From Caulobacter radicis (lineage in GTDB: Bacteria > Pseudomonadota > Alphaproteobacteria > Caulobacterales > Caulobacteraceae): a stretch of DNA of 64,000 bases. Below, piece after piece: positions 18,463 to 29,283 of the stretch. The translations under genes were made by a program, and so were the position numbers. Positions within the stretch are counted from its first letter, which is position 1. Every line of letters begins with the position of its first letter. The notes beneath the pieces were generated by a model. It saw only the letters and a program-made list of their open reading frames with translations, did not search any database and was not told where the DNA came from. The DNA is taken from assembly GCF_003094615.1 (NCBI RefSeq), contig NZ_QDKO01000009.1, positions 682,001 to 746,000 on the forward strand. The letters are read 5' to 3'.

Positions 18463-20277
18463 TTACGCGCCGGCCAGGACTGATCGGATGCGGTCGGCCA
18501 ATTCCCTGTTCTCGAAGGGCTTGCGCACCATCGACAGGTCCGTGCGGTCCGGCGTCACGTCGGCATGGCCGGTGACCAGGATGACCCGGATCCCCGGCGA
18601 CAGGTCCTCGGCCGCGCGGGCCAGTTCAAGGCCCGTCATGCCGGGCATGGCGAAGTCGGCGATCATCAGGTCGGGACGAACCTCGCGCACCCGCCGCAGG
18701 GCCTGCTCGCCGTCCTCGGCCTCGATCACCCGGTGGCCAAGGTCGCGGACCATGGCCACGGTCACCGCCCGCACGGTCGGGTCGTCGTCGACCACCAGGA
18801 CGGTGCGCGAGGGCTGCCTGTCCAGGGCGGCGTCGGCCGGCGCGCAGTCCTCGCCCGGAGCGCAGTCGCCCGAGCCGCGCGGCAGGTAGAGGTTCACCGC
18901 CGTGCCTTCGCCAGGCTGGCTCTCGATGTCGATCGCCCCGCCCGAGCGCTGGGCGAAACCGTAGACCATAGACAGGCCAAGGCCCGTGCCCTTGCCGACC
19001 GGCTTGGTGGTGAAGAACGGCTCGAAGATCCGGGCCATCAGTTCGGGGCTGATGCCCTCGCCGGTGTCGCGCACCGTGACCAGCACATAGTCGCCGTCTG
19101 GCAGGTCGTGGCGCGCGGTCGGTCCGGACATGGCGAAGTTGCGGGCGCTGATCGAGATCACCCCGCCGCCCGGCATGGCGTCGCGGGCGTTGACCGACAG
19201 GTTCAGCACCGCCAGTTCCAGCTGGTCGGGCTCGACATGCGCCGGCCACAGGTCGGTCGGCAGGTCCCAGGCGATGCGCACCGCGCCGCCCAGGGTGCGC
19301 ACCAGGATGGCGTCCATGCCCATCAGGGTGTCGGCCACGTCGACGATCTTGGGCTGGCTCTCCTGCTGGCGGCTGAAGCCCAGCAGGCGATGCGTCAGGG
19401 CCGCGCCCTTGCGCGCCGCCAGGCTGGCGTTGTCGAGATAGCGACGCACCTTGTCGGCGTCGGGCAGGCGGCGGCCCGCCAGTTCCAGACTGCCCAGGAT
19501 CGCGGTCAGCAGGTTGTTGAAGTCGTGCGCCACCCCGCCGGCCAGGGTGCCCAGGGCTTGCAGCTTGTCGGCCTGACGCAGGCGGATCTCGGCCATCTTC
19601 TGGTCGGTGACGTCGCGCTCGATGACCAGCAGGTGGCCGGCCTCGTCGCGCAGCGGCACGTACTGGCGCTCGGTCCAGACCGGCCCGGCCAGTGTGGCCT
19701 CTTCCTCGACCACCTGCACGGGCTGGCCCGCGGCCAGGGCCTCGGCCGCCTGCGGGGCGTCGGCGAAGGGATGCTCGCCGGAGGCGTTGGTGCGCACCAC
19801 CCGGCCTTGCGCGTCCTTGAAGGCGATGACGGCCGGAATGCTGTCCATCAGCCCGCGCAGCAGGGCCTGCTCGGTGCGCAGGGCGCGGCGCAGGCGCGTG
19901 CGCTCGACCCCGGCCGCGACGGTCGCGCGCAGGGCCTCGGGCTCCCACGGCTTGGCGACATAGCCGCTGACGCCGCCCAGGTTCAGGGCCGAGACCACGG
20001 CCGACAGGTCAGCATAGCCGGTCAGCAGGATCGAGTCGGCGTCGCTGATCGAGCGGGCGGCGGCCAGGAACTGGTCGCCGGTCAGGCCCGGCATCCGCTG
20101 GTCCGACAGGATCAAGGACACCGACGGCTCCTGGGCCAGGATGTCCAGGGCCTTGCCCGGGGCGTTGCTGGTCAGGACGCGGTAGCGGTCCTCCAGCAGG
20201 TCCTCCAGGGCGACCAGGATGTCGGGCTCGTCGTCGACGACGAGGATCGTCGGGCGTTCGCTCCCGGAAGCGATCAT
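18463..20277 (-). CDS. Hybrid histidine kinase, REC-PAS-HisKA-HATPase-REC
   Basis: 604 residues, last of the chemosensory cluster; its ATG overlaps the upstream stop by ATGA. Domains in order: receiver 10-125 (phospho-Asp about D59 in [10 protein letters not shown]), PAS-like 135-228, HisKA with His251 in [11 protein letters not shown], HATPase ([21 protein letters not shown]), and a C-terminal receiver ([20 protein letters not shown]). There are no membrane segments, so it is soluble. The N-terminal receiver implies that it receives phosphate, perhaps from the cluster CheA, and can relay it. No DNA-binding or GGDEF output is present, so a separate phosphotransfer protein is needed. Confidence 0.85.
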
Positions 20278-21923
20278 CGGCCTTCTCCGTCGGTGACAGG
20301 TGGCGGGATGGTGATGGTGAAGCGCGCGCCGCCCAGGTGGCCCTGGTCGACGACGATCGCGCCGCCGTGGGCGCGCACCACGTTGTAGGCGATGGCCAAG
20401 CCGAGGCCGGTGCCGGCGCCGACCGGCTTGGTCGTGAAGAACGGCTCGAAGATGCGGTCGCGAAGCTCGGCCGGCACGCCGGGGCCGGAGTCCTCGATCA
20501 CGATGACGAAGTCGCCGCCCTCGTCGCGTGTGGTGATGGCGATCACGCCCTGACCCCCGCCGGCGCCGCCCAGCGCGTCGGCGGCGTTGCCCACGATGTT
20601 CATCACCACCTGGTTCAGCAGGGCCGGCGAGCCCTCCAGGGTGTTGCGGGCGGCGTAGTCGCGGCGCACCGCGATGCCGTCGCCCAGCTTGTGGGTCAGC
20701 AGGGCGAGCACGGTCTCGATGGAGTCGGCGGCGTCCAGCACGTGGCGGTCGCCCTCGTCCAGGCGCGAGAACTTGCGCAGGTTCAGGACCAGGTCCTGGA
20801 TCCGCTTCATGCCCACCCGCATCGAGGCCAGGCGGGCCCTGGCCTTGTCGAGACCGGGGGAGGGGCTTTCGTCGGCCGCCGTGGCGACCAGGCGCTCGAC
20901 GGTGTCCTGGTGGCCCAGCAGGAAGGCCAGCGGGTTGTTGATCTCGTGGGCGATGCCGGCGACCAGTTCACCCAGCGAGGCCATCTTGGCGGCCTGGACC
21001 AGCTGGCCCTGCGCGTCCTTCAGCTGGCGGTTGGCGCTGGCCAGGTCGTCGGCGACGGCCGCGCGGGCCTCGGCCCGGGCGAGCGCCAGTTCCTGGGCGC
21101 GGGCCTCGCCGGCGCTGCGACGGGCCTCGTCGGCCATCAGCTTGCGGCGGAGCTGGGCCCTGACCCGGGCGCGGACCACCTCGTCATTGGCCGAGGCGGG
21201 CACCACGTCGTCGGCCCCGGCCTCCAGGGCGTCGGTCAGCAGGTCGCGGTCGGCCTCCTCGCCGCCGAAGGCCAGGAGCAGGAACGGCGCGGGCAGGCGC
21301 GCGCGGCGGGCGTCCAGCGCGGCCAGCAGGGCCAGGTCGTCGCGGTCGCCGCCGCGCACCCCCACCACCACCCCGTCGAGCTCGCCGTCGAGCAGGATCG
21401 CGTCGGGGTCGAGCCGCTCCAGCGTCGCCACCTCGTAGCCGTCCTGCTCAAGCAGGTGGCCAAGGCGCAGGCGCAGCGTGGCGCTGGGATGGGCGACCAG
21501 GACCCGGGCGCGACGGAAGGGTTCGGAGGCCTTGGGGGCGGCGGTCTCGGCGCGGGCCCGGCGCAGCAGCGCCTTCAGCCGCACGATCACCACCTTGGGG
21601 TCGGCCGACTTGGCGACATAGGCGTCGGCGCCGCTCTCCAGGCCCTGGCGCTCCAGATCGCTCTCGCGCGCGCCGGTCAGCATCAGCACCGGCAGGGCGC
21701 GCGTGCGGCCGTTGAGGCGGATCTGGCGCGACAGTTCCCGGCCGTCCATTCCGGGCAGGTGGAAGTCGGCGACGATCAGGTCGGGCAGGTGGGCGTTCAG
21801 CTGTTCCAGCGCCGCCTCGCCGCTGGTCGCGCACGAGACCGAAAAGCCTTCGGCCTCCAACAGGCCGCGCAGGCGCAGGGCCTGGGTTTCGGAATCCTCG
21901 ACGACCAGGACCGAGGCGCTCAT
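20274..21923 (-). CDS. Hybrid kinase with two N-terminal receivers, REC-REC*-HisKA-HATPase (CheS3-like)
   Basis: 549 residues, soluble. Receiver 1 (5-122) has D53 in [14 protein letters not shown] second receiver-like domain (138-260) lacks the acidic pair ([11 protein letters not shown]) and the phospho-Asp, so it is degenerate. A charged coiled coil (265-315) leads to HisKA with His326 in [13 protein letters not shown] and a HATPase with [10 protein letters not shown] and GTGLGLAIA. The ATG is directly followed by the neighbouring hybrid kinase through a 4-bp overlap. The two-receiver kinase layout recalls CheS3 of the Rhodospirillum centenum Che3 pathway, which takes phosphate from CheA3. 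Direct partner specificity is inferred. Confidence 0.83.
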
Positions 21924-28786: not shown

Positions 28787-29283
28787 GCCGGCTCGCTTTC
28801 CCAGGCGGCCAGGCGTTCCTGGGCCCGGCGGGCGAACTCGTCCAGCCGCGCCTTCTCCTCGGCCAGGAGCAGGTGCTCGGGCGAAAGCACGGGCGTCAGC
28901 CGACCGTCGATCAGGGCGGTTTCGGCGATGCAGCCGCCCAGGCTGTCGGCCTCCTCGACCGCTTGCGTGTCGGGCGCGTGCGCGGCGGCGTCGGTGACAC
29001 GGTCGACCAGCAGCGTCACGGCGGGCGCGCCGGCCAGCGGGCGCAGTCGGATCAGGTGGCGATAGAGGGCGGGCGCAGGCTCGCCGCCCTCGGCGTCGAG
29101 CAGGCAGTCCAGCGCCAGGGCCGCAACGGCCTCGCCGCCCAGATTGACGAAGCCGGCCAGCACGCGCGGCGCGCCCGGCGCGGCCGCCAGTTCCGGCACG
29201 GGCAGGATCTCGGCGACCGCCGCCTGCGGCAGGGCCGCTTCCAGCGCGCCGGCGCGGAAGGTCACATAGAGGCTGCTGGTCAT
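28783..29283 (-). CDS. cheW: CheW-like coupling protein (first copy)
   Basis: 166 residues from the ATG at 29283, chosen because GGAG lies 6 bases upstream. The CheW core includes YVTFRAGALEAALPQAAVAEI, LAGFVNLGGEAVAALALDCLL and PAVTLLVDRV. The last 35 residues form a charged helix (LLLAEEKARLDEFARRAQERL). This is the first gene of the chemosensory cluster, starting only 38 bp after the hutD stop with no terminator in the gap, so it may be transcribed with the hut operon. Confidence 0.82.
   Translation of the reverse strand: MTSSLYVTFRAGALEAALPQAAVAEILPVPELAAAPGAPRVLAGFVNLGGEAVAALALDCLLDAEGGEPAPALYRHLIRLRPLAGAPAVTLLVDRVTDAAAHAPDTQAVEEADSLGGCIAETALIDGRLTPVLSPEHLLLAEEKARLDEFARRAQERLAAWESEPA

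Follow-up and report, generated by a model that had tools for sequence, protein, structure and literature searches.

The 64-kb window of the Caulobacter radicis genome analysed here (source genome G000, 5.57 Mb in 47 contigs) carries on its minus strand, from 29283 to 18463, an eight-gene chemosensory cluster that ends in two histidine kinases, HK1 and HK2. The first gene, cheWa (28783..29283), starts with an ATG at 29283 and encodes a CheW-domain protein of 166 aa (Pfam CheW at 1.5e-11, obtained with the longer open frame 28783-29931). It is followed by cheR (27344..28786; methyltransferase with C-terminal TPR repeats, 480 aa, Pfam CheR 3.3e-45 and TPR), cheWb (26764..27339; second CheW-domain protein, 191 aa, Pfam CheW 9.7e-11), and mcp (25094..26764), which encodes a methyl-accepting chemoreceptor (MCP) of 556 aa with Pfam matches to 4HB_MCP_1 (partial), HAMP, and MCPsignal. 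Its layout is a transmembrane segment, a periplasmic part of four-helix-bundle type, a second transmembrane segment, HAMP, and the signalling domain. The product of cheA (22990..25086) is a 698-aa hybrid of Hpt, kinase, CheW, and receiver (REC) domains (Pfam Hpt, HATPase_c, CheW, and Response_reg, with no P2 match), and that of cheB (21920..22993) combines a receiver with a methylesterase (Pfam CheB_methylest 5.7e-57, Response_reg); its GTG start gives a 4-bp overlap with the cheA stop. The last two genes encode soluble kinases, namely, HK1 (20274..21923, 549 aa) with the order REC1-REC2*-coiled coil-HisKA-HATPase, where the asterisk marks a receiver lacking the phosphorylatable Asp, and HK2 (18463..20277, 604 aa), which is REC-PAS-HisKA-HATPase-REC according to Pfam. 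The junctions measure −4 bp (cheWa/cheR), +4 (cheR/cheWb), −1 (cheWb/mcp), +7 (mcp/cheA), and −4 for each of cheA/cheB, cheB/HK1, and HK1/HK2. Transmembrane-like segments number two in the MCP and none in HK1 and HK2, while CheA has one isolated scoring 19-mer. The gene order, domains, and coordinates from cheW to HK2 that the first-pass annotation had given are borne out by the open frames and Pfam matches, as are the REC-REC*-kinase and REC-PAS-kinase-REC proteins it had placed behind cheB.

The pocket of REC1 in HK1 is complete (E9, D10, D53, T83, and K105), and REC2*, with G188 where the phosphorylatable Asp is expected, shows a complete receiver fold in the AlphaFold model. The best structural superposition for REC1-REC2* (residues 2-279) is the PleD tandem, and PleD is also the best sequence match for REC1. 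HK1 thereby has the combination that marks a PleD-type switch, i.e., a receiver and an Asp-less receiver in tandem in the PleD arrangement. It resembles Caulobacter PleD in this tandem and differs from it in having a kinase after the tandem instead of GGDEF. A second phosphorylation site in REC2* was rejected, since the Asp position holds G, N, P, A, R, T, E, V, or D depending on the locus. Pfam reports HisKA for HK1 and neither an HWE_HK nor a PAS match. As for HK2, its nearest solved structures are CckA for the kinase core and HupR1 for the first receiver. CckA profiles match its PAS-kinase-REC end with 346 and 315 bits, which is far below the NCBIfam cut-offs of 1000, and, unlike CckA, HK2 starts with a receiver and lacks a membrane segment. 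Caulobacter HmrA, which has membrane helices and HAMP (PMC11481889), was rejected as a relative of either kinase.

The following counts of HK1 matches include the own genome where it was searched. A protein query at E 1e-40 matched 6 of 61 relatives, every one of them a member of the genus. Further matches came from 19 of 249 genomes of the family (11 in the same genus and 8 in g291; E 1e-120), 12 of 149 in family f74 (E 1e-100), 64 of 249 Acetobacteraceae (E 1e-60), one of the 10 genomes in the G099 family, and one of the 43 in the order to which G414 belongs. The class-wide search gave 8 of 385 (E 1e-70), two of them with the kinase part only and one (G235) distant. In total, 76 HK1 loci were read, the window included; for Acetobacteraceae, these come from 41 of the 64 matching genomes. 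Of these loci, 48 share the eight-gene order exactly, and they span several alphaproteobacterial families, so the arrangement is beyond chance. Among the remaining loci, contig edges truncate 2, the G414 locus is rearranged, L216 has mcp and cheA, L201 and L215 are not assessable, and L108 is distant. A further 19 have HK1-HK2 and no core chemosensory gene detected, the pair is in pieces in L236, and in Acetobacter oeni (L004) a dead CheB precedes the pair. Outside this sample, the Rhodospirillaceae metagenome-assembled genome UBA6219 (L296) has all eight genes, with an HK2 that lacks the last receiver. In Pseudoroseomonas cervicalis the cluster is carried by a 194-kb plasmid, and cheB there looks split. 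Further genes that look split into two frames within otherwise complete clusters are cheB in L110 (about 8907-9209) and L117 (about 12900-13950) and cheR in L156 (about 5027-5070); each of the three may be an assembly error or a real loss. In the G099 cluster, a rhodanese-domain gene (L105, 4951-5301, minus strand) shares 4 bp with the end of HK2.

CheA catalytic residues are kept across the cluster family, and the CheB S/H/D triad is present in the window as in 50 of 51 aligned CheBs. Compared with 41 non-sibling loci, the MCP is on average 32% identical in the periplasmic part and 83% in the signalling part, and a fixed ligand was rejected on the former value. According to the CheA tree (52 rows, 3 of which, L298_19, L265_0, and L296_27, are not CheA; SH-aLRT support only), sixteen cluster CheAs form one clade (support 100) with families mixed within it. 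The clade adjoins the Azospirillum plasmid CheA and L296 and lies apart from the genome's own ordinary CheA, encoded on contig 19; a flagellar chemotaxis cluster was rejected on this grouping. In G414, where the cluster is rearranged, CheA branches outside the clade, beside that of Pseudomonas borbori. Transfer of the cluster between lineages is the simplest reading. The cluster CheA has a C-terminal REC, has no P2, and lies outside the flagellar CheA groups, which are traits of the ACF class according to PMC10782961. From these traits we infer that the cluster would take the ACF name, although a REC on CheA also occurs in the F3, F5, and Tfp classes (PMC10782961).

In Acetobacteraceae genomes, the locus lies in a slot flanked by ftsX, ftsE, and a small gene and, at its opposite end, by hslV, hslU, and sufE. 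The slot contains the full cluster (L204, L205, L206, L210, L211, and L212), mcp and cheA (L216), the kinase pair only (most of L217-L235), or the pair in pieces (L236). As exceptions, all of these neighbours are missing from view at L224, ftsX and ftsE at L226 and L236, ftsX at L233, and hslVU at L230 and L233-L235. Of 21 loci, 17 yielded a candidate hslV start, the nearest being 7-79 bp past the HK2 stop. In the HK1 kinase tree, the root of which falls on long branches, pair-only rows nest among cluster-bearing rows, and loss of the array in place therefore seems likelier than its gain. The 19 pair-only genomes have no CheW-domain match in 14 cases and two in 5 cases; CheA in those 5 scores 144-233 bits with the cluster profile, similar to the 205 of the ordinary CheA of G000, whereas the cluster CheA of a control genome reaches 666. 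As for partially retained arrays, no CheR, CheB, or first CheW was detected at L216, and a diverged CheW-like frame (13 bits) precedes its mcp; its CheA keeps the Hpt His, N box, G boxes, and REC residues with a degenerate CheW domain, and REC1 is intact. The CheB of A. oeni has its triad changed (S to G, H to D, and D to S) and R at the phospho-Asp, and the only two CheW-domain proteins of that genome are both in one other cluster. The HK1-HK2 pair of L236 (10372-14066), from a genome of 2.0 Mb with genus code g399, is broken over several frames and is apparently a pseudogene pair; that of L226, which has the same genus code, is intact. Considering the genomes that keep the pair, HK1-HK2 most likely has a role without the array. 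HslVU is a stress protease, and its neighbourhood in Acetobacteraceae suggests a link to stress. The developmental or stress phosphorelay that the first-pass annotation considered probable has as its one pointer to stress the position of the pair immediately before hslVU in many Acetobacteraceae loci that were read.

The state of the REC1 pocket follows the presence of CheA. For this comparison, 52 loci with CheA were set against 20 without, omitting L108 (distant), L236 (in pieces), L215 (contig edge), and L201, which has no core in the 10 kb before HK1 and CheW-domain proteins on other contigs of its genome. The pocket E-D-D-T-K is present in all 52 loci with CheA and in 2 of the 20 without it. 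In 15 of the 18 altered cases, the phospho-Asp or the Lys is lost or the second acidic residue is replaced by a non-acidic one. The same 20 loci all keep the HK1 catalytic H, N, D, and G, and have an intact pocket in the first receiver of HK2 (20/20) and in its last receiver where present (17/17), with T and S scored alike and E accepted for the first D; the first receiver is intact in all 74 HK2s. Because the REC1 pocket decays where CheA is lost while the HK2 receivers keep theirs, REC1 is most likely fed by CheA.

Mean identities among 11 cluster-bearing Acetobacteraceae rows, and then between these and core-less rows, show that REC1 is the most conserved HK1 domain in the former (0.75) and drops to 0.52 in the latter. 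Lower values are also observed for the HK2 first receiver (0.72 to 0.61), the dimerization and histidine phosphotransfer (DHp) domains of HK1 (0.70 to 0.59) and HK2 (0.72 to 0.56), and PAS (0.44 to 0.29). Thus, overall divergence is not unique to REC1, but loss of the active pocket is.

Kinase-receiver docking faces were compared at five pairing positions per domain, which we take to be those of the HK853-RR468 pair; L107 is also omitted here. REC1 T13 and Q14 are invariant in 51/51 cluster loci and kept in 4/20 and 8/20 core-less ones, and the remaining three REC1 positions vary even with CheA. A333, F334, H338, and T341 of the HK1 DHp are invariant with and without the core, as are I20 and A23 of the HK2 first receiver. 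The HK2 DHp residues A259 and G262 are found in 51/51 cluster loci and then in 17/20 and 18/20 core-less ones, and V502 and V505 of the last receiver in 46/46 and 45/46, then in 15/17 and 17/17. Judged from residue conservation, these faces would fit a pairing of HK1 with the first receiver of HK2 without singling it out.

On balance, we favour a model in which a non-flagellar array controls a two-kinase cascade and HK1-HK2 is able to work without the array. The array would consist of one membrane MCP, two CheW proteins, and CheA-REC, with adaptation by CheR-TPR and CheB. In the first step, for which the probability is high, phosphorylated CheA would pass its phosphate to REC1 of HK1. REC1 would then be the phosphorylatable half and REC2* a non-phosphorylatable adaptor of a PleD-type switch that turns the dimeric HisKA kinase up or down; the structural model makes such control reasonably likely. 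Finally, HK1 would exchange phosphate with the first receiver of HK2 and so set HK2 activity, a step with roughly even chances. An obligatory relay through the C-terminal receiver of HK2 was rejected, because this domain is missing from HK2 in several loci (L106, L203, L208, L213, L214, L227, L234, and L235). In L106, L203, L208, L213, L234, and L235, the kinase domain is the last one of HK2, and the stretch just downstream showed no separate receiver frame; L227 has a separate receiver match downstream of HK2. At L214, a separate single-receiver frame with an intact pocket (4475-4928, minus strand) stands behind HK2, as if the domain had been split off. No output partner of HK2 was found, and there is none in the cluster. 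More tentatively, HK1-HK2 may be a free-standing two-kinase unit of Alphaproteobacteria, perhaps tied to proteostasis given its position before hslVU in many Acetobacteraceae loci read here. The array would have been plugged into it via the PleD-type REC-REC*, a dispensable plug that decays after CheA loss, yielding a three-kinase chain CheA-HK1-HK2 without a separate regulator between the kinases.

Several observations weigh against this model. Three CheA-less loci (L218, L219, and L221) differ by D10 to E alone, and two (L217 and L220) have an intact REC1 pocket. The omitted L108, L201, and L215 also have intact pockets and no cheA in the fetched stretch; if they are CheA-less, the altered fraction is 18/23. 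Parsimony gives 3 changes of CheA presence and 5 of REC1 state, and the tree holds 3 independent pairs with a sign test p of 0.25 at best; since there are only three independent contrasts, no test can reach 0.05. The HK2 C-terminal receiver falls from 0.64 to 0.43, nearly the loss of REC1, although its pocket stays. Regarding the later steps, the HK1 model has a predicted template modelling score of 0.56, which makes domain placement uncertain, and the evidence for HK1-to-HK2 transfer is conservation, which is non-specific, the faces of HK2's own DHp and C-terminal receiver being almost as conserved.

Two other explanations of the REC1 pattern were considered. REC1 might receive phosphate as feedback from its own kinase, HK1, or from a non-Che kinase, with the array acting only on CheB and the CheA receiver and the co-location being operon convenience. 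Kinase-attached receivers are often phosphorylated by their own kinase, and the intact pockets of L217 and L220 agree with this explanation. It is nevertheless unlikely, as REC1 decays without CheA while the HK1 catalytic residues and HK2 receiver pockets remain intact. Alternatively, the erosion of REC1 might be plain drift in fast-evolving, reduced genomes and uninformative on the wiring. All 20 CheA-less loci are from Acetobacteraceae, several of the genomes are about 2 Mb, the independent contrasts number three, and the HK2 C-terminal receiver, HK2 DHp, and PAS diverge as well. However, the same genomes keep the pocket of each HK2 receiver they have and the HK1 catalytic residues, and REC1 goes from the top-conserved HK1 domain to 0.52, compared with 0.61 for the HK2 first receiver, which renders drift improbable as well.

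With CheA feeding REC1 as the preferred reading, the cluster works most like CheA3-CheS3 of the Rhodospirillum centenum Che3 system, which controls cyst development, although HK1 is by its domains not a CheS3 orthologue. There, CheA3 with its own REC Asp removed phosphorylates REC1 of CheS3, a REC-REC*-kinase, and this phosphorylation is proposed to shut the CheS3 kinase off (PMC3868531); the sign of REC1 control may differ in the present cluster. Both systems have an MCP, two CheW, CheR, CheB, a CheA that ends in a REC, and a kinase combining REC1 with an Asp-less receiver (PMC3868531). The likeness in layout to Che3-CheS3 that the first-pass annotation had seen is thus supported, as is a likeness in the probable phosphate flow, and REC1 erosion without CheA fits the same input. 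The suggestion of that annotation that a second kinase has simply joined Che3 is not supported: CheS3 has PAS and an HWE kinase, whereas HK1 has HisKA and no PAS match, and CheY3, a free receiver in Che3, is absent, there being no single-receiver gene among the cluster genes of the window. Here, a second kinase with an N-terminal receiver is found instead; this receiver would occupy the place of CheY3 beside CheS3 and may stand in for it. No link to encystment is known for the cluster.

The Wsp order claimed for these genes is contradicted by the MCP gene, which holds the fourth position in the 48 loci of this exact order, the window among them, and comes first, as wspA, in the Pseudomonas operon wspABCDEFR (PMC8552884). 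Wsp membership was rejected on this position and on a two-kinase output instead of a single WspR (REC-GGDEF) or WspH. Burkholderia WspH (H-type Wsp) is similar in being a REC-kinase output of a related core in WspR's stead; that system differs in its wspA-F synteny with the MCP first, a separate and upstream wspH, a single kinase, and, within the survey, restriction to Burkholderia (PMC8552884). Wsp-type surface sensing with a WspH-like kinase output acting on biofilm genes, which would agree with the shared core proteins (CheR-TPR, two CheW, and CheA-REC) and with WspH as a published REC-kinase replacing WspR, is very doubtful considering the different gene order, an output of two kinases, not one, of which the first carries a PleD-type receiver pair, and the finding of Wsp only in beta- and gammaproteobacteria among 794 surveyed clusters (PMC8552884).

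Related cores carry other outputs. The Azospirillum ramasamyi plasmid cluster (L265) shares the core order W-R-W-MCP-CheA-CheB, and in the CheA tree its CheA forms the second-nearest branch outside the clade (support 88 and 97); it differs in its outputs, a C-terminal-REC protein without other Pfam match and a HisKA kinase-REC. In P. borbori (L298), CheA precedes a REC-GAF-PAS-GGDEF-EAL-REC protein, and in Corallococcus a related core has a PAS-GAF-kinase output. The surprise expressed earlier at the missing cyclase is for this reason only partly warranted, kinase outputs also being known from WspH and CheS3. Among the titles and abstracts listed by searches of CC-licensed PMC papers, none describes the eight-gene order or the CheA-less HK1-HK2 pair, and the survey PMC4618731 leaves out Che systems. 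As far as these literature searches go, the conserved two-kinase form, the PleD-type kinase input, and the natural deletion series appear to be new.

For many non-flagellar chemosensory arrays the wiring is unknown, and here related genomes perform the deletion experiment. Loss of the array with the kinases kept and the pocket of one receiver lost names REC1 of HK1 as the likely entry point, and the series sets the array apart from its output unit and points to individual residues. The data also suggest that a PleD receiver tandem is able to control a kinase and that CheS3-like outputs form a family, with members in genomes of Caulobacter, Phenylobacterium, Methylobacterium, Microvirga, Roseomonas, and others, and are not a Rhodospirillum oddity.

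As for the surroundings in the window, no promoter or terminator came up when 29200-29900 and 18250-18500 were scanned by simple means, and a gene for an M23 peptidase lies 176 bp downstream of HK2. Upstream on the minus strand are genes for an amidohydrolase (hutI-like), hutH, hutG, hutU, and hutD (29322..29864; Pfam HutD 5e-48), the last of which ends 38 bp before cheWa. A spacer or 580-bp promoter region before the first cheW was rejected, this stretch being hutD, and the cluster thus stands directly behind the hut operon in the C. radicis lineage. Genes of hut adjoin 7 of the 76 HK1 loci, all in the same genus, with hutD as the neighbour in the window and 6 further loci; four other loci of the genus (L109, L110, L149, and L150) have no hut genes. 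This neighbourhood suggests expression together with histidine use in the lineage of the window, and histidine use and the array may be co-expressed in the seven loci. A UTRA-domain regulator gene (37618-38160, plus strand) is divergent from the hut operon (29322-35802, minus strand). Elsewhere in the window, a solitary soluble PAS-HisKA-HATPase-REC hybrid kinase is encoded at 54239-55786 (minus strand), next to a peroxiredoxin and pyridine nucleotide-disulphide oxidoreductase gene (51849-54131).

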